DNA of 64,000 bases, taken from the NCBI GenBank assembly GCA_024516035.1, contig CM044959.1, positions 36,111,876 to 36,175,875 on the forward strand, written 5' to 3'. This DNA is from Bactericera cockerelli (lineage: Eukaryota; Arthropoda; Insecta; Hemiptera; Triozidae). A program made the translations under genes and the position numbers. The notes below the pieces were generated by a model. It did not search any database, was not told where the DNA came from, and saw nothing but the letters and a program-made list of their open reading frames with translations. Shown here in pieces: positions 6,201 through 48,510 of the stretch (position 1 is its first letter; every line of letters starts with the position of its first letter).

Positions 6201-9200
6201 TATGCTAGCCTAAACTATGTAGGTATAAAATGAGGTAAAAATGCAAGCGACGCGACGGGAGACAATTTGGTGTTGATAAAACCATGAGCGGGAGAGAACT
6301 CGGTGGTGACGTCCCTTATCAATACCTCACGAGGTATGAGTGTACCCCGGACATAATGGACAGAGAAAAAAAACTTCCCTGAAGGGGATCGAACCCAATT
6401 CATCGTGCGTGCAAGCCTAGTATGCTACCCACTTGGCCAAAGTCACTACTTTGTCACAACTTTTAGTGAGTAGCATCGACATTATTAGAGCTACCTCATC
6501 ATATTTTATCTCCATCCAACCATGATTGTCCAAAATCAATCTCGTAATGCCACCACAGGTCATTGGCCAATTCTGCAACAACTAAAATTTTCCTCGCGAG
6601 GGTAATGAGGTCGTCATGAAGATCAAATATAAAGATCGGAAAAACAAAACAACGTTAAGCCCAAATTAAAAATATAAAGCTAAAAAATTTCGTCCCCGCC
6701 AGGATTCGAACCCATGCTGACCGGTTGGCAGGTCGAGCGTGCTACCAATAGACAAAGTTATCTTCTAAAGAAACTGACGGAAAATGAACTAACTAAATTA
6801 ATACTTGGAAACTTAAACATTAAAATTTTGCAGTGAGAGAGCGAGGTCATCTCGAAAAATACATACTGGCCAAGATCTGACCACTAAGCTAAGGATTCGA
6901 AGGTACCTACCCGCCAAAGAAAATGAAAAGGCCACCAGGTGCCACCCAGTGGACCGGATGAAGGAATAAAATCAATAAATTTGGTTTCTGCTCATCAAGA
7001 TCTTTCATTTGATACCACTTAAGATTAGTATTATCCTTCAATTCCCGATTTGGGCTCCCAAAACCCGAGGCCGCCCAAATGGGCCGCCCGCTTATAATTT
7101 AGAATTTTTTTTTGGTCCGGGCTCATCTCCATTATATCTTGATCACTTTAGACACCTCACTTAATCTTCAGTGCCAAGTTAAAGACACGAAGTCGGGTCT
7201 CAAATGATCCGTATGAAGAAAAAAAAACAGAAAAAAAAAAAAAATTATGAATCTTTTCATGTCTTTCACGATTGTTGGGGGGTCTCGAAAATAGGGTTCC
7301 CGTTGGCCTAGGAAGTCAAACAAAAAGTAAAATCAATTTATTTTTCAACGTAGAGTCCATTTCTGCAACAAAAATCGCAATTTTTGAAATTCATGTTGCA
7401 CTTTTCGCTGGCTGAAAGTACATGAAATGCATGGGAACTATGTTTTCCGTAACCTTACACTCTGCCGGGCTGTCTCTTTCTTTGTATAGGCGTTCTTCAC
7501 ACCTCGGCCGAGGTGTTTGATAAATAGTAAGTACAAGTAGTTTTTTTATTTGAACAGTCAACATTGAAGAAGAAATCTTATATTTTCCAACAGAGGCCCT
7601 TCAAAGCTTAGGAGAAGTACCTTTGTATAAATGTTTCTTTAGAAAGAAAATAAATAAATAAAACTATTAAACAAGCGTTCGTCGGGTACTCTAGGGGTCG
7701 CGCGAAGCGAAGTCATTTATATGACAAGTTATCCTTCTATTTGGGATTTTGACTAAATACTGACGTACTCGAAGACTAAATACTGACGTCGCTGTTGGAA
7801 TAATGGGACTTATTAATGCTAGTTGGACAGGGAAAATAAGTGCAATATTATTATTAGATTCAACTGGGAGTGGTAATGTAGTCTTATGGTTCAAGATTAG
7901 AGTTTTGGATTGGAGTTTTCTCAGGACCGCGATCCGTTGACCTAATTCCTCATATTTCAAACGATAGCTTGTTTGTAGATGATAAATCTACAAAAACTCT
8001 CAATTTCACTCATAAGTACTATTCTCTCGTTCATTCACTCAGCAAATCTGAAAAGAACGAGGCAAAGAACGCCAGCTACAAGAATCGCATCGAAATCCTG
8101 CTCAAGCAACAGGACCTGATCGAGTCCAAGATCAAATCCGAGCAGTTGCAGCTGAAAGAGTTGGATGCTCAGATCAGGAAGGTGGAGGATCAGGTGCATG
8201 AGCTGCGCAGCTCTCACATGAACGATGAGAAGTACCTGATCAGAGTGCAAGAGCAGAACCGAGAAGTAAGTTTGAGAGAGAGAAGAATGTTCCAGGGTAA
8301 TACTCTACTCACATGAACGATGAGAAGTACCTGATCAGAGTGCAAGAGCAGAACCGAGAAGTAAGTTGAGAGAGAGAAGAATGTTCTAGGGTAATACTCT
8401 ACTCACATGAACGATGAGAAGTACCTCATCAGAGTGCAAGAGCAGAACCGAGAAGTAAGTTGAGAGAGAGAAGAATGTTCTAGGGTAATACTCTACTCAC
8501 ATGAACGATGAGAAGTACCTGATCAGAGTGCAAGAGCAGAACCGAGAAGTAAGTTCTAGGGTAATACTCTACTCACATGAACGATGAGAAGTACCTGATC
8601 AGAGTGCAAGAGCAGAACCGAGAAGTAAGTTGAGAGAGAGAAGAATGTTCTAGGGTAATACTCTACTCACATGAACGATGAGAAGTACCTGATCAGAGTG
8701 CAAGAGCAGAACCGAGAAGTAAGTTGAGAGAGAGAAGAATGTTCCAGGGTAATACTCTACTCACATGAACGATGAGAAGTACCTGATCAGAGTGCAAGAG
8801 CAGAACCGAGAAGTAAGTTGAGAGAGAGAAGAATGTTCTAGGGTAATACTCTACTCACATGAACGATGAGAAGTACCTCATCAGAGTGCAAGAGCAGAAC
8901 CGAGAAGTAAGTTGAGAGAGAGAAGAATGTTCTAGGGTAATACTCTACTCACATGAACGATGAGAAGTACCTCATCAGAGTGCAAGAGCAGAACCGAGAA
9001 GTAAGTTGAGAGAGAGAAGAATGTTCTAGGGTAATACTCTACTCACATGAACGATGAGAAGTGCCTGATCAGAGTGCAAGAGCAGAACCGAGAAGTAAGT
9101 TGAGAGAGAGAAGAATGTTCTAGGGTAATACTCTACTCACATGAACGATGAGAAGTACCTCATCAGAGTGCAAGAGCAGAACCGAGAAGTAAGTTCTAGG

Positions 9201-12200
9201 GTAATACTCTACTCACATGAACGATGAGAAGTGCCTGATCAGAGTGCAAGAGCAGAACCGAGAAGTAAGTTGAGAGAGAGAAGAATGTTCTAGGGTAATA
9301 CTCTACTCACATGAACGATGAGAAGTACCTGATCAGAGTGCAAGAGCAGAACCGAGAAGTAAGTTCTAGGGTAATACTCTACTCACATGAACGATGAGAA
9401 GTACCTGATCAGAGTGCAAGAGCAGAACCGAGAAGTAAGTTGAGAGAGAGAAGAATGTTCTAGGGTAATACTCTACTCACATGAACGATGAGAAGTACCT
9501 GATCAGAGTGCAAGAGCAGAACCGAGAAGTAAGTTGAGAGAGAGAAGAATGTTCCAGGGTAATACTCTACTCACATGAACGATGAGAAGTACCTGATCAG
9601 AGTGCAAGAGCAGAACCGAGAAGTAAGTTGAGAGAGAGAAGAATGTTCTAGGGTAATACTCTACTCACATGAACGATGAGAAGTACCTCATCAGAGTGCA
9701 AGAGCAGAACCGAGAAGTAAGTTGAGAGAGAGAAGAATGTTCTAGGGTAATACTCTACTCACATGAACGATGAGAAGTACCTCATCAGAGTGCAAGAGCA
9801 GAACCGAGAAGTAAGTTGAGAGAGAGAAGAATGTTCTAGGGTAATACTCTACTCACATGAACGATGAGAAGTGCCTGATCAGAGTGCAAGAGCAGAACCG
9901 AGAAGTAAGTTGAGAGAGAGAAGAATGTTCTAGGGTAATACTCTACTCACATGAACGATGAGAAGTACCTCATCAGAGTGCAAGAGCAGAACCGAGAAGT
10001 AAGTTCTAGGGTAATACTCTACTCACATGAACGATGAGAAGTGCCTGATCAGAGTGCAAGAGCAGAACCGAGAAGTAAGTTGAGAGAGAGAAGAATGTTC
10101 TAGGGTAATACTCTACTCACATGAACGATGAGAAGTACCTGATCAGAGTGCAAGAGCAGAACCGAGAAGTAAGTTCTAGGGTAATACTCTACTCACATGA
10201 ACGATGAGAAGTACCTGATCAGAGTGCAAGAGCAGAACCGAGAAGTAAGTTGAGAGAGAGAAGAATGTTCTAGGGTAATACTCTACTCACATGAACGATG
10301 AGAAGTACCTGATCAGAGTGCAAGAGCAGAACCGAGAAGTAAGTTCTAGGGTAATACTCTACTCACATGAACGATGAGAAGTACCTCATCAGAGTGCAAG
10401 AGCAGAACCGAGAAGTAAGTTCTAGGGTAATACTCTACTCACATGAACGATGAGAAGTACCTGATCAGAGTGCAAGAGCAGAACCGAGAAGTAAGTTGAG
10501 AGAGAGAAGAATGTTCCAGGGTAATACTCTACTCACATGAACGATGAGAAGTACCTGATCAGAGTGCAAGAGCAGAACCGAGAAGTAAGTTGAGAGAGAG
10601 AAGAATGTTCTAGGGTAATACTCTACTCACATGAACGATGAGAAGTACCTCATCAGAGTGCAAGAGCAGAACCGAGAAGTAAGTTGAGAGAGAGAAGAAT
10701 GTTCTAGGGTAATACTCTACTCACATGAACGATGAGAAGTACCTCATCAGAGTGCAAGAGCAGAACCGAGAAGTAAGTTCTAGGGTAATACTCTACTCAC
10801 ATGAACGATGAGAAGTGCCTGATCAGAGTGCAAGAGCAGAACCGAGAAGTAAGTTGAGGAGAGAAGAATGTTCTAGGGTAATACTCTACTCACATGAACG
10901 ATGAGAAGTACCTCATCAGAGTGCAAGAGCAGAACCGAGAAGTAAGTTCTAGGGTAATACTCTACTCACATGAACGATGAGAAGTACCTGATCAGAGTGC
11001 AAGAGCAGAACCGAGAAGTAAGTTGAGAGAGAGAAGAATGTTCCAGGGTAATACTCTACTCACATGAACGATGAGAAGTACCTGATCAGAGTGCAAGAGC
11101 AGAACCGAGAAGTAAGTTGAGAGAGAGAAGAATGTTCCAGGGTAATACTCTACTCACATGAACGATGAGAAGTACCTCATCAGAGTGCAAGAGCAGAACC
11201 GAGAAGTAAGTTGAGAGAGAGAAGAATGTTCCAGGGTAATACTCTACTCACATGAACGATGAGAAGTACCTGATCAGAGTGCAAGAGAGAAGTAAGTTGA
11301 GAGAGAGAAGTAAGTTCCAGGGTAATACTCTACTCACATGAACGATGAGAAGTACCTGATCAGAGTGCAAGAGAGAAGTAAGTTGAGAGAGAGAAGAATG
11401 TTCTAGGGTGATACTCTACTCACATGAACGATGAGAAGTGCCTGATCAGAGTGCAAGAGCAGAACCGAGAAGTAAGTTGAGAAAGAAAAAATTGTTCCAG
11501 GGTAATACTCTACTCACATGAACGATGAGAAGTACCTGATCAGAGCACAAGAGCAGAACCGAGAAGTAAGTTGAGAGACAATAATATTCTTAGGGAATAT
11601 AAATACTCTTGGAATAACTTGAGAAAATCAGTACATTTCTTAATTTTACCTTTTCAGGTTTTTTTTTTAAATAAACATGGTTTTTTTTATATGTATTAAT
11701 ACCTATGTAAAATATTTATCCCATAAAATATATAAGACCTGTTTGACTGCTGGAGTAAAGGGACTTTTCAGTCTTACCTCGGCAGTATAAACAAGGTATA
11801 TTCTATTCTATTCTATTCTATTCTACATCAATATTATAAACAGAAAAGTCAGAAGTTGTATTAGATGTACAAATTTTTACCAAAGTACTCGTAAGCTTCT
11901 TTTTTCCATTAAAAAAAAATATACAGTTACCAGGGGCGGCATTTTACTTCTTTTTGAATGATAAAGAATAAATGTGTTTTGTACATACATAACAGTTTAC
12001 TTTAAATAGATTTTAAACAACGTTATATTTCTCTTCGATGGACTGTACAACATAAATATGTGATGAGGAGGGGTAATTTCAACTTTAATTTAGTGAAATC
12101 GGTATTGCGTAAATTTCTAGGTGGATCTTCTAGAGAATCGACTACATACGGCCACTGTGAAGTTCAACAAGATGCTGATGGGGAACCGCATGCTGAAGCA

Positions 12201-15200
12201 TGAGATAGATCTGCTGGTCAAATCCAAGGCGCACTTCAACGAGCTGTATCAGGAGTTGATTCAGAAACTTGCAGATGGTACGTAAGTTGCTCGAATGCAA
12301 TTGTTGGTCTAAAGTCCAAGGGATCACCCGGATCACAGTAAATATCGCAGCTGAAGAACGTTTTAGATTAGATATTGTGAAAATTCTAACCACCTTGGTT
12401 GATCATAACATCTCCGATTTGTTCAAAGCCCAGAGGTACATACGTGCACTATTGAAAATATTTTATCGTCCTTTGAATTGTATCCCCTTATCCATACAAA
12501 TTTAATGGATATTTTTCATTACTATAGGGGGGCGTCATCGTGAACGATGGTAGCCAGACAGTGGAGGAATGACTCAGCACTTCTAGCACTGTCTTTTTTT
12601 TGGATAGCACAATCTTTTTTTTTAGTTGCGTTCCTCACAACATACCCATCTGAAAGCTGTAATTTCATCATCATTTTGATTTAATCTTTACAAATTAAAC
12701 AAAATTTAATCTGTAACATTGTTTTGGATCTGAATTCCAGGCAAGAAAGTGATCTTGGATCTCATCGAGCAAGCCACGGTGGCTTACGACCAGCGGGAAG
12801 AGTCCCAGAACAAACTGTTCGCCCTCAAGGAGAGGGACAAGGTGAATGTGGCGATGTATGGGCACGAGATGAGGGAGCTGCAGCGGGAGCTGGACCACGA
12901 CATCAAGCTGCAAGAGTTCCTGGGTAAGAATTATTAGTTTATTTTATTTCGAAAAAATGGCAGATTCAATTCAAAGTGAAATAAAAAAGACCGAGACAAG
13001 GGAAAACATGTGTATACAACTATACACATAGACAGTAAGCACCCATTTAGGTACATATCATAATAATTATACTAGTAGTATCTGTAAAATAAAATAAATA
13101 AAAACATTAATAGTGAGTAGTCCAGGTTTATGGGCAATATGCAGAAACTTATCGCCTACTACTGAACTCAAAATGAACGTAGCTACAAGAGTTTCTGTCA
13201 GAAACAAGAGACAATACCTGATATGTTTGCTAATAAGCTTTAAAGTCAGTTTCAACTACTATAGTCAAAATGTGTGGTAGGATTTTCCATCCAAAATATG
13301 TGGTATGATACATCCAACCATCTAGAGTGGAAATATGTCATACTCATGAAACACTGAGAATGGAGACGGATTACCAGCAGTACAATTTTGGAGTCTGAGA
13401 ACGAATGGAATCGCGATACAGTGTACTTCCAAGTCCCCATGTCAATCTATGTTTAATTACAGTGTTGAAATGACACCAGAAAAAGTTTTTCCATCGATTC
13501 AAATAATATGTAATCATACTAATCATATTTATGTAACCATGAAAACACATCAAGAAATGGTAGAAACGTATAAAATTTATTTTAAATAAAAGAATTGTCT
13601 CTTTCTATCTTCAGGAATCAAGGGTCAGAAGAGGATCATGCAGGATCTGGAACTGAGGGAGGCCGAGAAGAAGAAGGAGCAGCGAGAATCCCTGAGCCGG
13701 ACGATTGAGAAGTTTGAGAATATCCTGCAGCAGATCAAGCAGTTCTGCAATGAAACCGACATAGACAGGTACAACTTTGGGGCAGAATTGATAAATAATT
13801 CTAAAGTACCTAACACACAGACTGTACCTTACACAGACTGTGGGAGTTCCAAATCACCTGAAATATGATTTCTCCATCTGGTTAGCAAAAGTATAGTTAA
13901 AAGAAAAATCATAAAAACTAATAGCAATGCTTCCTTTTAACGTGTTCGCCAGGAAACTGCATGTAACCAAATTTGGAGTTAGACCAATTTCTGTAAAACT
14001 GATTTTAAACTTCTACCACGAATTGTGTTTTAATAAACGCTTTGTCTCTCGATTGACCAGGGTGGCTGCTCTGTTCATGAAGCAAGAGGAGGAAAAACTT
14101 CGCCCTGTTTAACTATGTCAATGAACTGAACAACGAATGCGAAACGCTGAAGGATCAGGTCAAAGAGCTGAAAGGTAATTTATGATAAACAAATAATTTA
14201 AAAATAAACTCTGGACGAAAATAAGAAATGATAATTCGGTGTGATTCTACCTGATGGTAAAATATCAGCTGATCACACCATGGCAAGTTGGATTTTCATA
14301 TTTGAGTAGACACTCACACTCAATGTATGGTTATTAATTCCAGCCTTAGTATCTAGGAAGGTCTAATTTCAACATACAGACCAATTAATTTTGCATATTT
14401 TAGTTTTACTGTGAGTGTCAAATTACTAAACACATAATACACAAATAGTTGTTTTTACAATAATTGAAACCATAATTTTGCATTTACTCCTGTTTTTCAA
14501 TGAAAATTATTATTTTATTTACAAGTTGACCAGTTTGAGTGTACCTACCTCCCTACATCTTTTGTTCTGTTTCTAGTAAACATCAACGAGCAGCGCACTA
14601 TCAACAAACAGAAAGCCATGGAGCAGCAGGACACACTGAGTAGTCTCAATCAGGATCTGAAAACCAAACAAGAGGAAACTGCTGCCACAAGACGCACACT
14701 TGACAACACTGTAAGCGTCACGGGAGACATCCTCGACAAGATCAGCGCACTTTTCTCATTCATGCGTCAGCAACAGACGCACCAGTCCGCATCCGTGCTG
14801 AATCTACTGGGCGAAACCGATCAGATTCAAGTGAACAAATACAACGTGTCGCTCTTCCTCGCCATCATTGAAAAGACGATCAGTCAGCTGCTGAATATTG
14901 TGAACGCGCCCTTGGAGGAACCACCTGTTGCTAAGCAGGAAGATAGTGTTCATTTTGAGTTCAGTAGTAGGCGATAAGTTTCTGCATTTTGCCCGTAAAC
15001 CTGGACTACAAGTATTTTATGACATGTAATTGGGTGCTTACTGTCTATGTGTTTACACATGTTTTCCCTGTCTCGTCTTTTTTTTATTTTGAAATGTATC
15101 TGCCATTTTTTCGAAATAAAATAAATTAAATAATTCAATATTTCATATGCAGTGAAATTTTCCATTCCATCAATTCTAAACACCCATATTTTCAGAGACT

Positions 15201-18055
15201 TTTTCAAAGCATTAAAGCAAATCTTTTAAGGTTATACCTTACACTCTGCCGGGCTGTTTCTTTCTTTGTATAGGCGTTCTTCACACCTCGGCCGAGGTGT
15301 TTGATTACAGTAGTGTAATCCTGATATTGAAGATAAGCTTTGTATCACCATGACAACCACAGAAACAAATCCCCATAGAAGCAGAGAAGCACACTACATT
15401 ATAAAACTTTCTGTTGAGTATTTGAGTGTACTTGGTTGGCCCTTGCTTTTTCATTTGAATTTTATATGAATAATACTACAAAAGTAAAGAAAAGTATTCA
15501 TTGTGTGTCAAAACAAATTGTTATACCATTTTAGAAACTATGAACTGTACAAATTGGTATAAAGTTTTCTAACAATTCAAGACAAAAACAAACTCTGATA
15601 TCTATTTTCTAAATATAAAAACAAATAGATTTATTTTTTGTGAATTCTGAAAACATCATGGAAGACATTCGCGCTCTCAAATCATTCCCTTGAAAGACAT
15701 CGGCAGCCTGGATTGGTTCGCCAATCAGCAGAGGATCACAACACTTCACCAGAGCATCATTTCCGAGATGAAAGACGGCGAGAATTCGGTGACAGCCAGG
15801 CTGATTCAGGAGGAGGGGAAGGCAGTGGTGTTGCTACACGAACTGATTGGACTGGATGAGTGGAAAAGAAATGTGCTGACGCGTATAAAGAAGAAGGTAA
15901 CTAAGTGATCATGTCTGTGTTTATCAATATTATTCAAACTAGCTCTATTAAATTATTGATTAACTGGGACTCGAACCATGAAATTCCAGGTTGCAAGTCA
16001 CCGTCTTATCGATTAGTTACTGTGAGGTTGCTTGTTATTGCTGTTTTTTTATGGTGGTCGTTGTAATGATGACGACAGGGTAATGAAACCAATCAGACTG
16101 AAGAACTTGCGTGCATAAAGTACTTGTACTTACGGAAAAAGTTCAATTTCGCAATATCTAAAAGTCTAAATCATAACATATCATTGACAAACAGTATGAT
16201 ATTATTTAAGATTAGAACTTTCTAGAGCTGAAAAGTAGGGACCTAAGTTAAGTAAAGTATAGTCACTTTATGACAAATGAAATAATATTTGTGAGGGCAT
16301 TTGAAATTGGATTACAGCAAAGATTACAGCAAAGATAACCAGACCATCCCTCAAGTCGAAACTATTCTTAACAGCTTTGTTGGCCGTATTAATTTTCGTT
16401 CCAGGATGGTTTGAATCAAGTGTTTCCAATCTACTCTATTCTGTTCTTTGAGTCAGTGTGCTCTTCAGTTCTCCTGTCCGTGATGTACTGCCAAGATGAT
16501 GATCTGACCAACATGTTTGAAGAGGAAGTGCTGTGCGAGCTCGTGGATCATTGTGTCGACCACATTGTGCTTCTTATAGGTGAGGAAACATAATGCGTGA
16601 CTGTGTTGTACATAGCAGCAACGTTGATAACGCATGATGGTGTCTGCGAGGTTAGGTGATGAGACCAATTCTGGCTTGACCTAACCCACAAAGATTATTA
16701 TGGTCCAAGGATTAAACCATTGATCGTGCAGACGCCTTTCAAATAAATTTAATAAAGTATAAGCTTTAAAGAGTAACTGCTAATGGTAAAGTTGATTCCA
16801 CTCCCAGTCATATTTTTGAACGCCTCAATACCAGTTTAGCTAAGAAAATTACTCGAAACCTGAGAGTCTACGTTTTAGTTGAGGATCGAGGATTGAAAAA
16901 ATAATTTGGTATGATTTTTTTTTCTCACATGTACCTAAGATATCACAGTATTTTTCACTCTAATTCAACTACGTTCAGGAAATCTAAAATGTGTACTTGA
17001 ATTATTATTTGAAGAGAAACTTCCTCAATTATGTAGGATTTCTCTAACTTGACAAAACCTTTTCAATGAGATCTTCAGTTAATAGATCTAAACAATACCT
17101 TACTTTTTCTCAGGGGTGACAAACAAGAAATCACCAATCAATCTGGAAACAAAAACACTGGACGACAGTTTAACCAACGTTGAACGAATCAACCGATATG
17201 AGTCGGATCTTCTGTATCAAGTCAGCAACGTGTTCCTATCCATTCTTCGTCTTGTGATAGATCACCTGGATGATTTGCCTCTGAGTCTGCTGACTCGTTT
17301 AGTTCAGCACCATGATGTGGCAATCCTGCTGGTTCATCTGATGGAGAACAGGGCATGGAGTGGAACAGATGTGGAGGGAGAGGAAGTGAAGTACAATAGT
17401 GAAGCCTGGAGCCGGGTCAAGCCGGAGGACCGATACATACTGGGTCAGTTTTTATACACAACAGCTATTGTATTTTTCATTATAACTTCAAATGTATATT
17501 ATAGAGATGATTCTACAGATAAGTACTAAAAATATACCGATAAAGTCTCCACATTAAAGGTTACCTATGTTGTGAATAACGCGGAAGATCCTCAGGTTCT
17601 GATTTTTGAGCGAACGAATACCTAAATATTTTAATTTTAAATTTGGCGCTACAGAATTTTATGTACAATCTTTAATGTAGGAAAAACACCATTTTATAAA
17701 ATAAATAAATTTGAAGAGAATCGGTTGAGAAATTTTGGACATACAAATGATTGGGTAAAAAATATCAGAATATATCGATAAAGGAAATTCGATAATTTTT
17801 TATCACCGAGTTTATACGATTTGAACCATTGACGAAGAAGTAGTGTGTGTGTGTGTGACTGTGCGTCTATAATTGGTGGAGTTTTTCTAATCTGTTATCG
17901 CCTTCAGCATTACTAAGAAATTTGTTTTTCGTTATCAGACTTGTCAGTTGTCTGCAAAATTAGAAACAGTATCGATAGTATGACTGATAGTTATAGTGAA
18001 CCTGTTAAATAGAGAAATTAATCGTGATCCTCTCAACAGCCTCCGTGGCGCAATT

Positions 18056-18098
<43 letters not shown>

Positions 18099-20606
18099 TC
18101 CACCCGGGGGCGATTTTTTTTTTAACATCTTATATTTTTTTTCACTCCAACATTCATTTTTAATAGAACAGTTTGTTGGGTTCTTTTGTATGAAATAACT
18201 AAGTACCTGGGCTACCTACTTTGGAAAACAAATTATTTTTTCAAAACGAACACTTTTCTAGTTATATATGTATTTGTGTAGTGTTGCTCATAATCAGGAA
18301 GTTATGGTATGCAATCATTCTTATTAGTTAAATTTCTGCTTGCGACACAAACTCATGTCTAATTCAATGTCTCCTTCCTGTGGTTCCCAGGCAAGTACGA
18401 AGCTCAGACTTGGAAGATGCTCCTGGACCTGCTGATGCATCCCAGATGCGCCGAGCTGTACGAGATATCCACCTCCCGCAAGGGCGAGCTGCTCAAGCTG
18501 GAGAAACATCTGCACGAAATCATCATCGACCAATTCCCGGCGTTGGGACACTTCCAACCGTGGTTCGCGCAGCTGAAAATGACCGGTGGCGGCCGAAACG
18601 TCGCGCCCAAACCGCTCATTCTCGAAATGGAAACCGATTCCATCCGATCGAAATTTCAGTCGGAAAACTTCGACAACATCGTCGAGAACACGATGAGAAT
18701 GCTCAACAGTGTCGTGTACCTGCGAGAACTTGCCACTAAACATTCGGACGTTTACGCGAATTTTGAAAACCTTCATGCGCCGTCGCAGAAGGACGCTGGG
18801 GGACATTCCTGCAGCGCGTGTGAGGCTCGGGCCAAGTTCAAGTGTAGCCGCTGCAAGCAGGTGTGGTATTGCGACAAGAGTTGCCAGCTCAAGCATTGGG
18901 GGGAGCACAAGAAGCTCTGCAGCGTATGAGGGGTTTCTTCCTCTAGCTGAGTATAGCTTCTATATCCTTGAGCATTGGGGGGAGCACAAGAAGCTCTGCA
19001 GCGTATGAGGGGTTTCTTCCTCTAGCTGAGTATAGCTTCTCTACCATTGAGCATTGGGGCGAGCACAAGAAGCTCTGCAGCGTATGAGGGGTTTCTTCTT
19101 CTAGCTGAGTAAAGCTTCTATACCCTTGAGCATTGGGGGGAGCACAAGAAGCTCTGCAGCGTATGAGGGGTTTCTTCCTCTAGCTGAGTATCGCTTCTCT
19201 ACCCTTGAGCATTGGGGGGAGCACAAGAAGTTCTGCAGCGTATGAGGGGTTTCTTCCTCTAGCTGAGTATCACAAGATATTTTATCAATTTCGCAAACTA
19301 TATTGCTTTTTTCAATATTGTCAATAACTTGCATAACTTCTCCATAAGAACAGGCATTCTAGAAATATATTTTTGATCACTTGCAGTTTCTTGGATTGTC
19401 AGGAGTTGGTTATTTTATTTTGTTATTTGGAATTTTGATGATGAATTTTGAAAGACCAGGACTTGCAGCCATACCGGCGAGTGCCTAGTTCGATAAACAA
19501 GAAATATTGCAGCGTAATAGCAGTGAGTTGCTCTCATAGGAACATAAATTTGTCTTGATTTTTGCTTATCTAAAAATGAGCCATTGTATGGAATTACAGA
19601 ATTATTCTAGGGCACATTGGATAGTAACTAATATTCCATGCAAAATAAAGGAAAAACACATCAATTCTCATGTGACATTGACTATGTGACTCCATGCGTT
19701 TTTCAATGTTTGTCCCCTTTCTAATAGGAAATACGAACGCATATACTGGTCACAGTGCAAGCAAGTTCCGTTGAAGCGAAAACCGTTTCAACTACCGTTC
19801 CAAGCAATCAATGTAAATAGACCGTAGAGGAGCCTCTAGGACTATATGGAGGGCACTCATAAATAAAATCAGACTCCTAAGTGAAACATGAGTCAGAAAT
19901 TTTCCTGTTTATTACAATACGCAATTTCCGAACTAATAGGGCACAGAAAACTTACAATTGATTGCTAGTACAGTCAAACCTGGATATAAAAGAACTGGAT
20001 GTGAGAGAAACTTGTACATAAGAGCAAATATTCTAGGTCAAATTTAACTCTCTCTAAGGGAAAATAAATCTCTTTATAAGAGAAACCTATACATACTCGT
20101 ACAAGAGAAAAAATCTGGTGTAAACATCACACGACTTTCCTTATCCCCCAAAAAGAAGTCGAATTCCGCCACTGGTGACTCAACGGTAACGGATACTTAA
20201 AAATCAGTGCCAAATTCGTAATCAGCACCTTAAAATCATTGGATTTGATATGTCGCAACCCCCATCTGGGGTAAATAATAAAAAAGTTAGTCCAAGCGGG
20301 TCCCCCCAAAATACCGGTAAATTGAGGCCGGGTTCCAAAAAGTTCAAGATTTCAAAAAAATGATGAGAATAGACCCCTATTATTTTTTTAACTTGAGAAA
20401 ATGTTGTTCTCTAACTTTTTTTGTATCTTTAACCAATTTAAAAAAGCGGCGCTTGCGGCTAATATTTGCGGCCCTGCGGCCGCAGAATGCGGCCGATTTC
20501 AACCAAAAGTTTCATGGTTCGTCTGGTGTATAAATTGAATTACCATACCAAATTTCAAGTCTCTAGCTCTTACCGTTCTCGAGATATCCTGTTTACACAC
20601 ACACAC

Positions 20607-20664
<58 letters not shown>

Positions 20665-21010
20665 GCACGGACCAATGGCTGAAATCAACTTTTTTGGTAT
20701 CCTGAGGCTATGATTCGTCCAGAAATGTGAAAAAACTGGGTAGGTCAAATTTTCGACGAATACAATACTTTCCTTATTATAGATAAGGAAAGTAAAAATT
20801 TCCGGTCCTTTGACTTCTCTTATATCCACAGAATCTATACTATATTCTTGAATATGATTACGTCCTAGGAACGAACAAATTGGATTAATATTATTTTATT
20901 GATATTGACATGAAACTAACGAAATACCTAAATCAAATAGGAAAAAGAAAGATTTTTGTTGTTGATATAACAACTGACCATTTGACAAAAAAATTCGCCC
21001 CCGGGTGGAT

Positions 21011-21052
<42 letters not shown>

Positions 21053-21351
21053 AATTGCGCCACGGAGGCTGGATACGAAAGTTCAGATATGAAGTTAATT
21101 TTGATGTGCAACTTTTAGTACTTGGAATATTGCAAGTAAAGTACTTAGGTACATTACGAACGATTTTATACGTACTATGAAATACATTATAAGTACATTG
21201 TACATAATTTACATAAACAGCATCTTACTGATAAGCGCATTTGCCAAAAACAAACTTTCTGTCAAAAAGGTACTGCATTTGATAGGTTATTTTGACTATC
21301 AAATATGTTTGCGAACTGATAATGTAAACAGTCAGCCTCCGTGGCGCAATT

Positions 21352-21393
<42 letters not shown>

Positions 21394-33300: not shown

Positions 33301-36300
33301 TGACAAAAAAAAATTCCGTACACAGTGCATGACTTCTAAAAAACAGTCAAGTCTTACAACACCAACAACACGAGAACGAAACTTTTTATATCACATAACT
33401 ATTATCCTTTGCTCGGTATCAAACCTACAATCCCCGGGAAAATATTGAACACTATAAACACTCCCGACCAGTGACAAATGTGCCGTGAACAGAAATTCAG
33501 CACAAAACCAGACGAGAAAAAATATCTCCGATCTACTTGAAAATAACACACACGGGGCAGCTATAGTGCCCCAAATTGGAGTGCATGCCAAAAAGAGAAG
33601 AAACATAAACACCTTGCTCGAGGAAATTGAATTGTATGAATTTTGGCATAATTTTCATTCTCTTTCTTAGCGTTCGCGTTAATTAAACACACCTATGCAC
33701 CGGCATGTTGGAGTTGTGGAAATAATTAAATGTATGAAGAATCGGGTGTACAACACATTGCATAAGACAAATAATATAAAAATTAAACGGCACATGCAAG
33801 ATAATAAAAACAGACGAGATACTGTAGGCCGGTGGCGCCGAGTTCAGGCCCGAAATACTGTGCGGCAATGCCTCATTATGTAATGTGTAGAAAAAATATG
33901 TGTAGGGTTATGTTGGTGAGAGAGAATTAATAATTCACTTGAAAAATCCTCTCAGGAAATGCACTTGTTTTGTATGAGTAGGTATAGGTTCTAATTTGAG
34001 CTACTTCGGTCCAATAATAAAATTGTTTTCATTTAACTCAGTTAATAATAATAACACTTTTTAGTGGTAAGTAACCACCAGGCGAGGTTAATGCTTAAAG
34101 CATTTTCTACCACCTAACCCTCAGTTTTATTATTTTGAGGTCAAAAATTGAAATTAACGAGGAAAAATTCATGCACTAGGTGGGATTCGAACCAACGAAT
34201 CAAAACTTTACCTGGATTACCAGGCTAGCGCGTTAGCCACTTGATTACCAGTTTAAACTCACCTCAGTATTACGTTTTCCTGAATTAACTCACCTCAGTA
34301 TTTCCTTCTCCCGATTCATTTCACCTCAGTAGTTCGTTTTCCTGATTCAACTTACCTCAGTAGTTCGTTTTCCTGACTCAACTCACCTCAGTAGTTCGTT
34401 CTCCCGATTCAACTCACCTCAGTAGTTCGTTTTCCTGATTCAACTCACCTCAGTAGTTCGTTCTCCCGATTCAACTCACCTCAGTAGTTCCTTTTCCCGA
34501 TTCAACTCACCTCAGTAGTTCCTTCTCCCGATTCAACTCACCTCAGTAGTTCGTTCTCCCGGATCAACTCACCTCAGTCGTTCGTTCTCCCGGATCAACT
34601 CACCTCAGTAGTTCGTTTTCCTGAATCAACTCACCTCAGTAGTTCATTCTCCCAATTCAACTCACCTCAGTAGTTCGTTCTCCCCGATTCAACTCACCTC
34701 AGTAGTTCGTTCTCCCGGATCAACTCACCTCAGTCGTTCGTTCTCCCGGATCAACTCACCTCAGTAGTTCGTTTTGCTGATTCAACTTACCTCAGTAGTT
34801 CGTTTTCCTGACTCAACTCACCTCAGTAGTTCGTTCTCCCGATTCAACTCACCTCAGTAGTTCGTTTTCCTGATTCAACTCACCTCAGTAGTTCGTTCTC
34901 CCGGATCAACTCACCTCAGTAGTTACTTCTCCCGATTCAACTCACCTCAGTAGTTCGTTCTCCCGATTCAACTCACCTCAGTACGTGAGTCAGTAGTTCG
35001 TTCTCCCGGATCAACTCACCTCAGTATTTCCTTCTCCCGATTCAACTCACCTCAGTAGTTCGTTCTCCCGAATCAACTCACCTCAGTAGTTCCTTCTCCC
35101 GATTCAACTCACCTCAGTAGTTCGTTTTCCCGATTCAACTCACCTCAGTAGTTCGTTTTCCCGATTCAACTCACCTCAGTAGTTCCTTCTCCTGAATCAA
35201 CTCACCTCAGTAATTCCTTCTCCTGATTCAACTCACCTCAGTAGTTCGTTCTCCTGATTCAACTCACCTCAGTAGTTCGTTCTCCCGGATCAACTGACCT
35301 CAGTAGTTCGTCCTCCTGATTCAACTCACCTCAGTAGTTCGTTCTCCCGATTCAACTCACCTCAGTAGTTCGTTCTCCCGGATCAACTCACCTCAGTAGT
35401 TCGTTCTCCTGATTCAACTCACCTCAGTAGATCGTTCTCCTGATTCAACTCACCTCAGTAGTTCGTTCTCCCGGATCAACTCCAGGCGCCTCTGTGTCTC
35501 CCGCGCCAGCACCACCTCCTCCCCCCCACTCCTCTCCCTCAACTCTGTCTCCACGATGGTCTGCCTCCGCGTCTCCGTCTCAACCCTCTGCCTGCGGAGC
35601 TCTGTGTCCAGGGTGAACCTGGAAGTGACCGACACGCCACGGACGTTAAACATGGTGTAACATATCGTCTTGCTGGGGGACGATTAACAGGGAGTAACAT
35701 ATCGTCTTGCTGGGGGACGTTAAACAGGGAGTAACATATCGTCTTGCTGGGGGACGTTAAACAGGGAGTAACATATCGTCTTGCTGGGGGACGTTAAACA
35801 GGGAGTAACATATCGTCTTGCTGGGGGACGATAAACAGGGAGTAACATATCGTCTTGCTGGGGGACGTTAAACAGGGAGTAACATATCGTCTTGCTGGGG
35901 GACGTTAAACAGGGAGTAACATATCGTCTTGCTGGGGGACGTTAAACAGGGAGAAGACCAGTGTCCCGCTAGAGGACTATAAACAGAGAACAGACTAGCT
36001 AACCCTCATAAGCCAGGCTAGCTTGCAGTTTACTAAGGGTTTAATGGCTTATAAAGAAAAGTCTATGTCCTCATGATGGTTGATCGCACATAGAAATATT
36101 ATTATTATTATATAATTCTTTATTAGATACAAAATGACATTATGTACATATAAATAATAATTTTAACAGTGAAAAAATGAAAAAAACAATATATAAAATA
36201 AAAATGAAAAAGTATAGAAAATATTTGAAAACATATGTCCTAACTAAAGGGCGGGGTTATTGCCTATGGCAATCTCTTCCACCCAACCCTTATGTTCAGG

Positions 36301-39300
36301 ACGAGCCAACTTTGAAATAAGTTGGCTGGAGACCATCACTCACCCCTCCAGCTGTAGCCAAGCTGGCTACAACAAGAACAACATAGAGTAACATATATTA
36401 TGACCGGGAGATGGTCCTACCAGGTCCCTACTCATAGTACTCATGTATATTAATATAAGTGAGCAGGTACCTGGCAAGCGCATCTCGAGCCTGCCATTAC
36501 TTGTTTATAATAATAGTACTCTACAGTGGAAGGTAACCAGAAGGCGAGGCTATTGCTTAAAACATTTTTGAACACCTAACTCTTCAAGAATAAAAGTTTT
36601 TTCAAGTTCCTGATACCCATCTCACAAAATAATAGCTTCCGTATTGGATAGCTTTTTTCTATCCTGTATTTCTTCGCTTTTTAAAGAAACTAATTGGGTT
36701 GATTCTTCATTCTGCCTTCTTCATTCTGTATGTTATAAGACATAACACTTTCCGTGCCGGAGACTCATTTTGAAATTATTGCCCAGTGCCGTAGCGATAT
36801 TTGGCCGGTGTTACCAAATGGTAATATTTTTATTTATTTATTTAGAAACTCTTTATTAGCAGAACATATATACAGACAAACAATGGTAAAAATTAAATAT
36901 AAAATTGACAGTATTAATAATATAAACAAGAAAAAAATAAATAAAATATATACATATGTCCTAACTAAAGGGCGGGGTTATTGCCTATGGCAATCTCTTC
37001 CACCCAACCCTTAAAGTTTCCCTATCTAGATTATCAAGTATTAAATAAAATAAAATAATAATAAATAAATAAAAATATGTACATGGATATATATAATTAT
37101 ATACAAAAAAAAAAGGATTTATATATAATATATATAAATGTAAGAAAAAAAAAAAAAAAAAATCAATTTTCCAAGAAATGTTCCTTCGTCAAACCTTTAA
37201 ATGCCAAGCGATTTTCCAAGGTTCTAAGTTCATCAGGCAATTGATTCCAGGATCGAACAGCATTAACTATAAAACTATTACCCATATGGTTTGTGTGATG
37301 AGGTGGAATGGAGAGATGAGTGGAGCGAGTGTTATGGCTATGAAATGAAGAAAGTGAGTGAATTGATGAATGAAGATATGGAGGTGAAGCCTCCTTCATT
37401 ATTTTCCATAGTAAGCCCAATCTCTGGTGTTCTAACCTCTTATCGATTGGTAGCCATTGAAGAATTCGTCGATTTGCTGAAACATGATCGAATTTCTTCA
37501 ACCCAAAAATGTATCGAACACAAGCATTCTGATACGTTTGAAGTTTTTTAAGTAGGTTCCCAGTGATATTTGACATAGCAGCTCCAGCATATTCAATTAA
37601 AGGAAATATAAGAGAAGTACACAGGAGCCGCTTTGTCTTGCGGGGCAAAAACCTTTGCAAACGTTTCAGGGAATGAAACTTTCGATACACTTTTTTACCA
37701 ATGTGAATAACCTGAGAGTTCCATTGAAGATCTGCATCAAAAAGTAAACCAAGATATTTTATACAAGAGGAAAATGGGATTGCTTCAGAGTTGAAAATGA
37801 TGGGAGGTATATGGGACTGAGATACCCGATGTAATAGTGGTTGAGACCCTATAATGATGGATTGAAACTTTTTTGGATTTGGGATTATACCATGGTTTTG
37901 AGTCCAGGCCTTTAAAGCATTAAGATCTGTATTCATCTTGAAAATAGCTTCATTGATATCATCCACATAAGTTTCAATGTAGAGTTTGTAAGTCGTCAGC
38001 ATATAGATGATATTTACAGTATTTAAAAATTGACGATATATCGTTGATAAATATTGAAAATAATAGTGGCCCTAAGATACTGCCTTGAGGTACCCCTGTA
38101 TTGATAGGAAGTAAGCAAGAGCTTGAATCTTGGTTAAAAACATACTGCTGACGACCCCGTAAATAGGTATTAAACCAATGAAGTACAATAGGTGAAAAAT
38201 TGAAATGTTTTGAGAGCTTAGTGAGAAGTATATCAAAATCAACCGAATCAAAAGCTTTACTAAAGTCTGATAGTAGTAGGATAGTAACTTTAGTATTATC
38301 CATACTTTTGCGTATATCATCAGTAACTTTAATCAGAGCAGTAGTTGTGCTGTGACCCGATCGAAACCCAGATTGATAAGGATTAAACAGGTTGTTGGAA
38401 TTTGAAAAGTTTATTATTTGATGATGAACTACTTTCTCAAGGACTTTCGATAATACGGGGAGAAGAGATATAGGCCTGAAATTGTTTAATCCTGTAGGTT
38501 TGGATATTTTGGGTAAAGGAAGAACACGACCGATTTTCCATTGTGTAGGAAACTTACCCGAACGAAGAGAGGAATTGATAATGTGGGTCAAAGGGATCAC
38601 AATGAAATCCAAAATTAATTTCAAAAACTTTATCGAAAGACCATCATTGCCAGATGCGTTTGATTTAATAGAACTGGTAATACCGGCACAGGCTTGAATT
38701 TTTTTTGAAGTTTTTCTTGTTCTGTGCCGGTGTTACCATTTGGTAACTCTATTTGGTAACCAGTGTTACCAAAAGGTAACACCGGGGTCGAGAAGTAGAT
38801 GTCTTCGGTGTTACCAAACGGTAACACCATTTTCCTGAACAGGTGTTACCAAATGGTAACACCGGCACGGAAAGTGTTAAGTTATGCATAAACTAAAGAG
38901 GGGAACGTTTTTTGTCCAAACGAATTAAATAGCTCACTACATTATGGTGTGTGATGAGGAAGATTATCGGTCGGTTTGCATCATCCTGAGAAGAGAACAC
39001 CTTTGCGTCATTACGACAGTATTCGTTCTAATATCAGCATTAACAATCAAATTCTAAGAGGGGGAGTGTAATGTTGGGACTTAGAAAAAAATATATTCTC
39101 CCATGCATCCTCACCGAAATAAGACCACTACATCACTTTCTATTCTGTAAGATAAGGAAAAAAAACACTGCCAATTATGGACACAATACTTCCTCGTGAT
39201 TGCTTCACATTGTAAACACGTGCCAATTTTGAGATTTTATAGAAAATTACTTGTATCTCCAAAACGGCTCAACCGATTTTCTTCAAATTTGATTTATATG

Positions 39301-42300
39301 ATATAATATCGTTTTTTATACATTCTAAATTCCACAAAAAATTCTGTATCGGCAAGTCGTGGTCCTTATTTTTTTACTTTTTTGTCCAAAATTTCGGATT
39401 TTCTTAAATATCAGAGTCAAATTATAATTAATTTAAAAATAAATATAAATGACCTATGTAAAACAATAATATCCATATTCTTACAAAATTTCATCGAAAT
39501 CGGGTGTACCGTTCACGAGATATAAGCGTTTAAGTAAAAAGTTAGTGGTCAGGCGCATGGTCTCTTTCACCCAGAACCGCTGATATGAATTCGATGAATT
39601 TAAAATGGGACCATCTACGGAATGTCTCCTAGATGTGTGCAAAATTTTATCAAAATCGGTCGAGTAGTTTCCGAAATTTGCGCGTTACAAGGAATCGTTT
39701 TAACAGACCGACGGACCGACAGACCGACAGACGGACACAAAACCAAATTTACTCAGTAGGTTATGGAACGTCCAGAAATATGAAAAAAATTGAAATCGGA
39801 GCAAAAAAATATTTTTTTTTTACAAAAACGAACACAATACTTCCGATTTCTAATATTAGAAATTTCTCGGAAGTAATACAAAAATCGGTCTGTCTTACTA
39901 AAGGAAACCAAAATTCGCCTCACCTGCACTCCCTCTCGTAGCCGGGACTGGCCGGTACCGACGCGGAGTAAGCGTTGCGCACATAGTTCTCAAAGTCCTC
40001 CACACTGGGACTCAGAGCGCGGTGGATCTCCTGAATAGCCTCTTGGCTGGAGCTCAGCCGGCCGCGGGACGAACCCACCCGCCCATTCAGCCTCGGGGGG
40101 CTTTGCCAATCCCGGCGGGTCGGGTCGATTGGGCTGAGTCCATGACGGGTTGAATCCAGACCGTTCCTAGCGGGGCTAACTCTTCCGTTTCTTATAAGAT
40201 CTTGCTTGTCGTATCTCGCATGATCAAGTCCATTTCCTAATCCACTCTTTCCGGGACTTCTGTCACTTCTTGACGGATCAAAGGTGTTTTCTCCCGGGAC
40301 TGACTCTATCGTTTCTCGTCCGATCTATGCCATTGTGATGTATCGGGCTAAGTCTACTGTGACCTGTGAACTCTAGTCCGTGTCGGATAGGGCTGGGCCG
40401 GGAATCGAACGAGGAATAGCCGAGGTCGAAGCTGCGGCTCATGACCTCGTGATGGGGGTGGATGGGTTGGAACTCGTGACTGTGGGGAGTTAGCTGGGGG
40501 GTCAGGGACCTGCGAAAATACGTTTTCAAAATATTTAGACAAGTAAGTAAAATAAAGCATCAAACATATCTTTGATCTTTAACAGTGATTTTTGTTGGGA
40601 TCGGTTATCCTATAACTAACACAAGGTATTACTCACCTATGATTTTTTTATATTTTTTTTTATTATCTAACGTTATTTTCAATTTCTATATTGAGGCGGG
40701 AGTTTCACACCCGACATTTCCGTAGGGAAATGTGAAGCTACTCACATAAAGATTGACCTTAACCACATTGAGGTTGTTGAATTGATGATAATGAGAACTC
40801 ATGGGTGTAACTAGGTGAAACTCTTCTAGCAAACCAACGAACAATAGAATAGAATATACAATAGAATAGAATATAAAGATAATTGTATTTATCAGTGAAG
40901 ATTTTACAATGGTGGTTGGCAGATGGTGGCAGGTGGTTCCTCAACGAACAATCCGTTGAGGAAAAGAATAACTCAAGGTATGACTCACCTGTGGAACTCC
41001 CTGACTCGCACCTCCCTGTCATACTCCTGGCTATGACTCATACTGGAGGGCAGAGTGGCATACTTGACTCACCTGTGGAACTCCCTGACTCGCACCTCCC
41101 TATCATACTCCTGGCTGTGATTCATACTGGAGGGCAGGGTGGCATACTTGACTCACCTGTGGAACTCCCTGACTCGCACCTCCCTGTCATACTCCTGGCT
41201 ATGACTCATACTGGAGGGCAGGGTGGCATACTTGACTCGCCTGTGGAACTCCCTGTCATACTCCTGGCTATGACTCATACTGGAGGGCAGGGTGGCATAC
41301 TTGACTCGCCTGTGGAACTCCCTGTCATACTCCTGGCTATGACTCATACTGGAGGGCAGGGTGGCATACTTGACTCACCTGTGGAACTCCCTGTCATACT
41401 CCTGGCTATGACTCATACTGGAGGGCAGGGTGGCATACTTGACTCACCTGTGGAACTCCCTGTCATACTCCTGGCTGCGAGTCATACTGGAGGGCAGGGT
41501 GGCATACTTGACTCACCTGTGGAACTCCCTGACGCGCACCTCCCTGTCATACTCCTGGCTATGACTCATACTGGAGGGCAAGGTGGCATACTTGACTCAC
41601 CTGTGGAACTCCCTGTCATACTCCTGGCTATGACTCATACTGGAGGGCAGGGTGGCATACTTGACTCACCTGTGGAACTCCCTGACTCGCACCTCCCTGT
41701 CATACTCCTGGCTATGACTCATACTGGAGGGCAGGGTGGCATACTTGACTCACCTGTGGAACTCCCTGACTCGCACCTCCCTGTCATACTCCTGGCTATG
41801 GACTCATACTGGAGGGCAGGGTGGCATACTTGACTCACCTGTGGAACTCCCTGACTCGCACCTACCTGTCATACTCCTGGCTACGAGTCATACTGGAGGG
41901 CAAGGTGGCATACTTGACTCACCTGTGGAACTCCCTGTCATACTCCTGGCTACGAGTCATACTGGAGGGCAGAGTGGCTTACTTGACTCACCTGTGGAAC
42001 TCTCTGACGCGCACCTCCCTGTCATACTCCTGGCTACGAGTCATACTGGAGGGCAAGGTGGCATACTTGACTCACCTGTGGAACTCCCTGTCATACTCCT
42101 GGCTACGAGTCATACTGGAGGGCAGGGTGGCATACTTGACTCACCTGTGGAACTCTCTGTCATACTCCTGGCTACGAGTCATACTGGAGGGCAGGGTGGC
42201 ATACTTGACTCACCTGTGGAACTCTCTGACGCGCACCTCCCTGTCATACTCCTGGCTACGAGTCATACTGGAGGGCAAGGTGGCATACTTGACTCACCTG

Positions 42301-45300
42301 TGGAACTCCCTGTCATACTCCTGGCTACGAGTCATACTGAAGGGCAAGGTGGCATACTTGACTCACCTGTGGAACTCCCTGTCATACTCCTGGCTACGAG
42401 TCATACTGGAGGGCAAGGTGGCATACTTGACTCACCTGTGGAACTCCCTGTCATACTCCTGGCTACGAGTCATACTGAAGGGCAGGGTGGCATACTTGAC
42501 TCACCTGTGGAACTCCCTGTCATACTCCTGGCTACGAGTCATACTGTAGGGCAGGGTGGCATACTTGACTCACCTGTGGAACTCCCTGACTCACACCCCC
42601 TGTCATACTCCTGGCTACGACTCAAACTGGAGGGCAGGGTGGCATACTTGACTCACCTGTGGAACTCCCTGTCATACTCCTGGCTACGACTCATACTGGA
42701 GGGCAGGGTGGCATACTTGACTCACCTGTGGAACTCTCTGACTCGCACCTCCCTGTCATACTCCTGGCTATGACTCATACTGGAGGGCAGGGTGGCATTA
42801 CTTGACTCACCTGTGGAATTCCCTGTCATACTCCTGGCTATGACTCATACTGGAGGGCAGGGTGGCATACTTGACTCACCTGTGGAACTCTCTGACTCGC
42901 ACCTCCCTGTCATACTCCTGGCTATGACTCATACTGGAGGGCAGGGTGGCATACTTGACTCACCTGTGGAATTCCCTGTTATACTCCTGGCTATGACTCA
43001 TACTGGAGGGCAGGGTGGCATACTTGACTCACCTGTGGAACTCCCTGTCATACTCCTGGCTATGAGTCATACTGGAGGGCAGGGTGGCATACTTGACTCA
43101 CCTGTGGAACTCCCTGTCATACTCCTGGCTACGAGTCATACTGGAGGGCAGGGTGGCATACTTGACTCACCTGTGGAACTCCCTGTCATACTCCTGGCTA
43201 TGACTCATACTGGAGGGCAGGGTGGCGTACTTGACTCACCTGTGGAACTCCCTGTCATACTCCTGGCTATGACTCATACTGGAGGGCAGGGTGGCATACT
43301 TGACTCACCTGTGGAACTCCCTGTCATACTCCTGGCTATGAGTCATACTGGAGGGCAGGGTGGCATACTTGACTCACCTGTGGAACTCCCTGTCATACTC
43401 CTGGCTACGAGTCATACTGGAGGGCAGGGTGGCATACTTGACTCACCTGTGGAACTCCCTGTCATACTCCTGGCTATGACTCATACTGGAGGGCAGGGTG
43501 GCATACTTGACTCACCTGTGGAACTCCCTGTCATACTCCTGGCTATGACTCATACTGGAGGGCAGGGTGGCATACTTGACTCACCTGTGGAACTCCCTGA
43601 CTCGCACCTCCCTGTCATACTCCTGGCTACGAGTCATACTGGAGGGCAGGGTGGCATACTTGCGGGCCAGGATGGGGTCCTGCGGGGGATGCGGGGTGGA
43701 GAGCTTCCTCACAATCAGGGAGTCCTGGTGTCGAGTCCAGGCGGAGTTGATGAGGGAGCGGAGCTGGTGGATGCTCTGCAGGACCTGGCGGATGCCTTCG
43801 CTCTGGAATAATTAGAATTATAGGATGAGGTAATGTTGTTGTTATTATACAGGGTCGCAAGGTGGGTGTTCGTATTTGAAAGAATGAAATTGGCCACCCT
43901 GGCCCCGACATGGGGGCCGGTAACAAAAATCGACCCCACTCTTAAAGAAGGTCTTATTACCCCGGTTTACAGTACAAAATTTTAATTTTATCCAAAAAGC
44001 CATTCGAAAGTTATTCAGGGATTTCCAGACTTTTGCCCCACCTGTATAATAATTCCCTCTCCCTGACATATTAACAATTGTACAAATACCTACCTTACTG
44101 ATTTTCCAAACTCGGGACTGTAACCACCGAAATCAGGGTTGTGTGTCCTCAGCTTTATGTTGTTGTAAGTAGCTTAACTACAGCTAGGAGGAGTGATGGT
44201 CTTTAGACTTTAGACGATGGTCTTTAAAAGTTGGCTCGTCCTGAAGCACATATTTCTATGTGTGTATCGTGAGATCTTGGGATTTTTCCTTAAAAGCTTT
44301 TAAACCCTTGGGAAAGAGCAAGCTAGCGTGGCTTGTTAAGGGTTGGTTAGTCCGTTCTCTGTTTATACAGGGTGATCGAAACCACCCAGCCACTATCTTT
44401 TTCTCGAGAACGGTTTGAGTTAGGATCTTGAAACAAAAAATTAGTCCCCAATATGGAGTCTGAAGTTTCATGGGAAAATATTTTGAACCTCCGCCCACCG
44501 CCCCTAAGGGCGTTTTCAGGGGGGCACATGTCCGTTTCTCCCGAATTTTAAATGGAATGCAATTTTTTTTATTTTACATTCAAAACATGCAAAGCAAGTT
44601 AGTAACACTAGTAAAAAGAAAAAAAATATTCCTTGGTTCGAGTCCCGAAAAAACACGGCTTTTAGAAGAAAATAGACCCAGGTTCCGGAAGTCATTACGG
44701 GCACCCGGTAAACGTTGTAAAAAAAACAAAAATGTCAAAAAATAGGTAAAGTTCTCCTCTTTAATTAAATGTACTTACTTTTATTCTGCAAGTAAGTCAT
44801 AGGTCCTTAAATTGGTCATAAACTTTTTTCAGGTTCAAAAGACCAAAAGTCCAGAAATTTAAATTCGACCCCCTATTTTTTTTTCTTCAACATAAAAGTA
44901 GAAAATAAGTAGCATACAATGCAAAAAAAATTAACTCTCTGCGATTTTTTTCTGAAAATGGCAGACGAATAACCTCTGAAAAGCGTTCATTTCCGTGCGC
45001 GTGTGTCATGACACGAGTCCGTGCCTGAAGTTTGTATGTACGATGTAGATAACTCACCTCTACAGATGTTCAAAAACACCACCCTCTGCTGCAATACATT
45101 TCCTGAGTCTGCCAGAATAGGTGGCATGAACTCTCTCTAGCTCCTCAGGTGTGATGTTCCGGCAGATCTCAATGATACGCAGCTTCATATTTTCCACATC
45201 TGTTGGCCTGGTTCGGTATGCTAAATCTTTCACCTTTCCTCACAGGTAAAAATCAATGACGGTGAGGTCCAGGGTGCCGGGGGGATAAGGTTTTGGTTCT

Positions 45301-47886: not shown

Positions 47887-48510
47887 CGCGAAATTTCCCG
47901 GTACACCCAAAGGCCCTGTTTCGGGAAAGGGGGGAAGGCAGTTGTTGCTAAAAAGAACTAAATTGGGCCCGGGAGGGGGGGGAAAAAAATTTTCGGGCGC
48001 GAAGAAAGAAAAAGGTTAAACTAATTTAAATCATTCTGGGCTTATAAAAAAAAAATTCAAACTAGCTCCGGGTTCAAACCATAAAAACTTCCGGGTTTCC
48101 CAACCCCACCTCTTATCATAAACACGTGATTTGGGGTAACTTTTTGGTTTAATGGCTCTTTTTTTAATATGGGGTTGTAATGATGAACGAACTAATGAAA
48201 CCAATCAACAAAGAAATTTGCGTGGAAAAGTAAAATGACTTGTATTTAAAGGGAAAAAGGGTTCAATTTTGCAAGGGTCAAAAATTCCTAAATCATAAAA
48301 ATCATTGACAAACATATGCAAATTAAATTAGGATTTTTCAAAGAGCTAAAAATAGGCCCCAAAGGGTTAATAAAGTAACCCCCTTTTATAAAAATAAATA
48401 ATATTTATGGGGGCATTTAAAATTTGATACAGCAAAGAAAAGCCAACCTTTCCCTCAAGGGGAAACCTATTTTTAACAGTTTTTTTAAACCGTATTTTTT
48501 TTCCTTCCGG

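Follow-up and report, generated by a model that had tools for sequence, protein, structure and literature searches.

Minisatellite arrays anchored at the 5' splice sites of genes of the psyllid Bactericera cockerelli

The window considered in the present work is a stretch of 64,000 nucleotides of Bactericera cockerelli (assembly GCA_024516035.1, contig CM044959.1, positions 36,111,876 to 36,175,875 of the forward strand), which harbors the genes ODAD1 and ZMYND10 on the plus strand and a coiled-coil gene on the minus strand. A sequence-only reading of this window had claimed that four tandem arrays are each anchored on the 3' end of an exon. The whole window was analyzed with Tandem Repeats Finder (TRF), regarding as large those arrays with a score of at least 500 after merging overlapping rows, and the DNA around them was read. 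The search retrieved five large arrays in the part of the window lying before a gap of 100 Ns; in four out of five, the first unit straddles the 3' end of a coding sequence, which is a 5' splice site in three cases (ODAD1 and two minus-strand exons) and a stop codon in the remaining one (ZMYND10). These data confirmed the anchoring of the four arrays, whose form (head-to-tail units of about 10–100 bp, with variants) is that of minisatellites.

The second coding exon of ODAD1 (8043..8265, +) is followed by a donor, GTAAGT, starting at position 8266. Array 1 (8213..11578, +) is composed of 94-bp units with 76-bp variants, each of which contains the exon end, GTAAGT, and the start of the intron. 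The next ODAD1 exon (12121..12279, +) is placed across the array on the basis of the orthologous proteins of Diaphorina citri (79% identity) and Cyamophila (75% identity), in which exon 2 continues directly into exon 3 with no array sequence in between, matching a junction from 8265 to 12121. Since the orthologues cross this junction uninterrupted, the array is probably intron only, the first donor being used and the array being spliced out. Within the array, an 810-bp block is doubled with no mismatches (8658-9467 = 9468-10277), which reflects either a block that duplicated recently or a mistake in the assembly. A 25-base word of array 1 has 39 exact matches in the whole genome, all of them at the two copies of the ODAD1 locus; thus, the array is not dispersed. 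As for the rest of the gene, the frame of exon 6 (about 14062-14173) is broken relative to the D. citri and Cyamophila proteins, due to either an assembly error or a real allele.

The last exon of ZMYND10 (18391..18929, +) encodes the MYND finger and terminates with the stop codon TGA (18927-18929); the protein shares 68% identity with that of D. citri. Array 2 (18892..19270, +), made up of 4.8 copies of a 79-bp unit, straddles this stop codon. Three tRNA-Asn(GTT) genes are located in the same region, one between ZMYND10 exons 3 and 4 (18039-18112) and two downstream (20996-21069 and 21334-21408).

The other two arrays sit on exons of the minus-strand coiled-coil gene, which had been named a spectrin; the gene turned out to be only weakly spectrin-like, with a single exon matching Spectrin_7 at 19.6 bits, below the cut-off of 27. 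The exon encoding ...ENELL(R) (35454..35618, -) ends at 35454, next to a GTGAGT donor, and carries array 3 (34256..35482, -), with 39 copies of a 31-bp unit. The exon encoding ...VREFH(R) (43585..43802, -) ends at 43585, again followed by GTGAGT, and carries array 4 (40981..43660, -), with units of 69/84 bp; its TRF rows span 40981-43599, and the first exonic copy extends up to about 43660. Between two exons of the gene, reverse-transcriptase-like open frames were recognized by eye (37163-38732, -), flanked by GGTAACACC-rich repeats.

The fifth large array (35641..35953, 8.5 copies of 37 bp) lies in an intron, just before an acceptor, and belongs to a repeat with look-alikes elsewhere in the genome. 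Indeed, the 37/38-bp arrays at 35641-35953, at C5:10050461-10050654, and at positions 890-988 of locus L032 resemble a single dispersed repeat family. Moreover, by eye, neither the smaller TRF arrays (e.g., those at 6011-6158 and 26889-26996) nor the small ones inside the minus-strand coding stretch 31696-32054 were found at exon ends.

If arrays were placed at random, the probability that at least four of the five large ones would have an exon end in their first unit is 2.2e-6, a post hoc value computed from a by-eye curation of 20 exon ends, in which the ends of the two minus-strand exons were set one base off. As this test was post hoc, further stretches were sampled away from the window, for a total of 110 kb (60 kb at C5:10.00-10.06 Mb plus five spaced 10-kb stretches). 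The inspection by eye of these samples revealed seven donor-type array loci. Three of them are at C5:10007174-10008702, C5:10049554-10049750 (two copies, at a donor or a stop), and C5:10050837-10051707; the other four, with units of 77, 29, 55, and 80 bp, fall on one strand of the stretch C6:5,000,001-5,010,000 (L033), apparently within one gene, which looks class V aminotransferase-like by eye. No donor-type array was recognized by eye in the other four spaced 10-kb stretches. Among the array rows of these samples scoring at least 500, 4 out of 11 are of the donor type. At C5:10007174-10008702, an exon end with its donor is repeated 17 times, and the T-rich tract that follows the donor varies in length from copy to copy.

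To extend the comparison to the whole genome, an annotation-free proxy was adopted, i.e., the count of splice motifs occurring as three words in tandem with a period of about 23-53 bp, the control being the same pattern written backwards. Triple AGGTRAGT donors gave 9,707 matches (4675 + 5032) versus 896 (457 + 439) for the backwards pattern, whereas the triple acceptor word TTTNCAGG gave 440 (198 + 242) versus 330 (184 + 146); with respect to the same-composition control, donor-motif arrays are therefore about 11 times as frequent and acceptor-motif arrays 1.3 times. Overlapping triples are counted separately in these figures, so that arrays are fewer than matches and a few long arrays have a large weight, and the acceptor comparison is diluted, true acceptors being only part of the TTTNCAGG sites. 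Among the matches listed, C1 contributes six donor loci (two of them near-identical copies) over its initial 4.77 Mb, corresponding to 1.26/Mb, and the acceptor motif gives 19 loci over about 154 Mb, corresponding to 0.12/Mb; at least one of the latter (C3:32553258) is actually a donor array. According to these data, the enrichment at exon 3' ends predicted by the sequence-only reading was not refuted by the motif proxy, and the anchoring at exon ends is real and not confined to the window.

The abundance of the single words was then estimated in 281 kb of clean sequence, window and neighborhood included. Outside arrays, AGGTRAGT does not exceed its control (24 versus 36 backwards), whereas within arrays or at most 60 bp from them it occurs 157 times, versus none for the backwards word. 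These 157 occurrences derive from five distinct loci, two of which are represented in both copies, and all five are at exon ends by eye. Scaling these base rates to 565 Mb, the matches per word are about 0.20 for the donor and 0.012 for its control, rough values from small counts, and, equally roughly, about 0.003-0.004 for both the acceptor word and its control. Per single site, AGGTRAGT thus gives rise to about 16 times as many matches as its backwards control. By this motif proxy, which uses no annotation, the frequency of arrays at donors exceeds that of the same-composition control.

Concerning the nature of the loci retrieved, we checked the upstream flanks of seven tandem-donor loci: three show a clear long exon, two a plausible short one, one is unclear, and in one the exon was not reached. 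In particular, L038, L039, and L042 have a long open exon up to the first donor (that of L039 being PDZ-like by eye), the near-identical copies L035 and L036 have a plausible exon of 25 residues, L037 is ambiguous, and the flank of L040/L041 stays inside the array throughout. Of four acceptor-motif loci examined, only one is a real exon acceptor and the other three look non-exonic. This one (L043, C3:26476282-26476861) is an array of 44-bp units straddling the acceptor of a clear exon, and a two-copy acceptor duplication was found at C5:10008970-10009135; the mirror case thus exists and looks rare.

Much of the neighborhood of the window is present twice on the same contig, and the duplicated surroundings suggest that the second copy is most simply the other haplotype. 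The arrays of the two assembled copies differ in copy number: the ODAD1 array has 39 donors in the window and 8 in the second copy, the 31-bp array has 39 versus 46 at C5:36178488-36179948, and the 69/84-bp array has 36 versus 10 at C5:36182408-36183112. Arrays 1, 3, and 4 are therefore multi-unit in both copies, and we infer that the length differences are allelic. The part of the window that follows the N gap (47787-47886) is a degraded, homopolymer-rich sequence (47887..64000), largely collinear with the region of about 16-32 kb; as such, it does not represent independent sequence and is probably an unpolished duplicate remaining in the assembly. Also in this degraded copy the ZMYND10 array is best read as multi-unit, with at least five units and an exact number that is not fixed, the fit being 264.0 with one unit, 331.8 with five, and 345.2 with ten. 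The region C5:36092001-36108000 is likewise homopolymer-rich and degraded.

What would these arrays imply for the genes that carry them? In ODAD1 (acceptor at 12121), as in the L033 locus with 29-bp units, unique intron sequence and a separate acceptor come after the array. In array 4, the frame of the exon reaches a TGA directly beyond the first donor of the 69-bp units; this, in turn, would imply that the use of later donors truncates the protein. Donors are recognized during transcription. A rule of the type "first copy wins" would then apply, in which the first donor, or the first stop codon in the case of ZMYND10, decides, arrays lying beyond it are tolerated, and arrays at acceptors are not.

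In principle, an excess of donor arrays over a background of the same composition points either to a duplication process biased toward exon-rich DNA or to duplications promoted by the donor itself. The reading that we prefer, although we hold it tentatively and at somewhat less than even chances, is that length-variable minisatellites are seeded at the 5' splice sites of many psyllid genes, with a bias of birth or expansion directed to the donor. A tandem duplication would capture the last bases of an exon, the donor, and part of the intron; unequal exchange or slippage would then yield a variable-number tandem repeat (VNTR). The first donor, still joined to the intact exon, would be transcribed first and used, so that the copies would leave with the intron. 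The donor itself would favor duplication or expansion, the most plausible cause being a germ-line process linked to transcription or splicing. Both the birth by duplication and the use of the first donor are deduced from the structure of the loci. A more specific version, to which we assign a lower probability, is that in this lineage 5' splice sites act as mutation hotspots in the germ line, tandem duplications arising and expanding there because the donor is recognized co-transcriptionally; the triggers might be polymerase pausing, a nascent exon RNA that stays tethered, or an RNA-DNA hybrid.

Several observations weigh against a donor-directed bias. The fifth large array is away from any exon 3' end, the ZMYND10 array lies at a stop codon rather than at a consensus donor, the array at C5:10007174-10008702 begins about 100 bp into the intron, apart from its exon, and acceptors are also affected, as seen in the array of C3 and in the two-copy duplication of C5. 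A few long arrays weigh much in the motif counts, and the exons other than those of ODAD1 and ZMYND10 were judged by eye, with no annotation. The arrays themselves are equally silent on the process. No significant gradient of divergence was detected in any of the six array copies, out of nine, for which it could be computed, unit-length variants distorting the counts in some of them; the claim that the arrays grow downstream therefore holds for their position and not for a polarity of growth, with new units joining on the exon side. An early hint of higher divergence at the 3' side of some arrays had edge effects and was discarded. In a window-rank test on eight array copies, the copied donors were not specially conserved, the best rank being 5 out of 31, reached by one copy; a pooled comparison had hinted at lower variation in the donor hexamers (28/1376 versus 381/11799), and selection on the copied donors was rejected as the rank test gave it no clear support. 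An automated search for microhomology at the exon and intron breakpoints of 12 array copies revealed no common signature, the flanks being diverged, and the few short matches noticed by eye are given no weight. Lastly, an exon-biased birth combined with strong purging could produce the same picture.

This last possibility leads to the strongest alternative, namely selection acting purely as a filter, which we consider a serious though less probable contender. Duplications would be frequent anywhere in exon-rich DNA, those out of frame in exons or placed on acceptors would be purged, and copies beyond the first donor or the first stop would survive, being silent. Such a filter covers donors and stop codons together, as well as the scarcity of acceptor arrays; it is consistent with the probable use of the first donor in ODAD1, and with the unit length of an array within a transposon-like open frame, which is a multiple of three (69 bp, by eye). 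Yet a filter only removes arrays, and hence purging cannot lift donor arrays above neutral DNA, as the 16-fold excess per AGGTRAGT site would demand. It also requires a strongly exon-biased birth, for which G+C content alone looks insufficient, because AT-rich non-exonic arrays occur and one donor-type array has only 30% G+C. The selection for frame safety suggested by the sequence-only reading would thus account for the rarity of acceptor and out-of-frame exonic arrays and not for the excess over the background; its overall interpretation, in which an R-loop or nascent-RNA-templated repair might act at splice sites, is partly supported, as regards the anchoring at exon ends. The donor-directed bias is preferred to the filter because acceptor words remain at the control level.

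The remaining alternatives appear much less probable. The word GTRAGT might be prone to duplication in itself, exonic or not, and it is indeed present in the unit of most donor arrays; nevertheless, most of the 24 AGGTRAGT words outside arrays look non-exonic by eye, whereas the five loci that account for the word inside arrays or close to them all lie at exon ends, which, small as these numbers are, makes the fragility of the motif improbable. Strings of donors might instead be positively selected, e.g., as U1 binding sites protecting long introns or tuning splicing. The GT is intact in nearly all the units counted, but the conservation of the donor hexamers does not clearly exceed that of the unit's other windows and copy number differs widely between the two assembled copies, so that this idea is slightly more doubtful still. 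We regard as very unlikely the creation of introns by tandem duplication of a segment bearing AG|GT, which is present in several units and recalls the genes of fission yeast, cited in PMC4974935, that contain 24-bp AGGT copies in tandem, since the arrays of ODAD1 and L033 (29 bp) are followed by a unique intron with its own acceptor and the ODAD1 unit holds intron sequence not found in the exon. Just as unlikely is an assembly artefact, suggested by the degraded duplicate in the right part of the window and by the 810-bp block repeated without mismatches, given that three arrays recur in second copies at other lengths and the same class is found at other loci with unrelated units.

The donor-anchored arrays resemble known systems only in part. 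Classical minisatellites, or VNTRs, have units of tens of bp, variants, higher-order blocks, and length differences, and are scattered, whereas the psyllid arrays are tied to 5' splice sites and, in one case, to a stop codon. Variable internal tandem repeats at exon–intron boundaries have been described in recent paralogues of human segmental duplications (PMC2812944); like the psyllid arrays, they are minisatellites of variable number lying across the boundary, whose units average about 30 bp, and they alter gene structure. In the passages considered, however, donors and acceptors are not separated and the examples, 27 intron modifications, are few and come from recent paralogues, whereas in the psyllid the excess of donor motifs is genome-wide and the examples include genes such as ODAD1. 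Intron gain (Hellsten 2011, as cited in PMC4974935) likewise proceeds by tandem duplication of a segment holding AG|GT; it creates a new intron, whereas the psyllid arrays, where checked, lengthen the 5' end of an existing one and keep its acceptor. The class of donor-anchored arrays was not found in the literature searched, which left subscription journals mostly outside and did not include supplements or preprints.

If the bias toward donors is mutational, splicing or transcription would leave a direct physical imprint on the DNA of the germ line at a precise position, and a single genome with so many arrays would allow a direct test of how RNA processing and the birth of tandem repeats are linked. 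If, furthermore, the 5' splice site is a mutation hotspot, splicing would shape the DNA of introns and give rise to VNTRs at the ends of hundreds of exons or more. If the cause is only selective, the arrays would still constitute a natural experiment, with tens of near-identical donors behind one exon and copies differing in length, in which one may ask which donor the spliceosome picks. In either case, these arrays are relevant to how the genomes of psyllids, a group that includes crop pests, are assembled and annotated.

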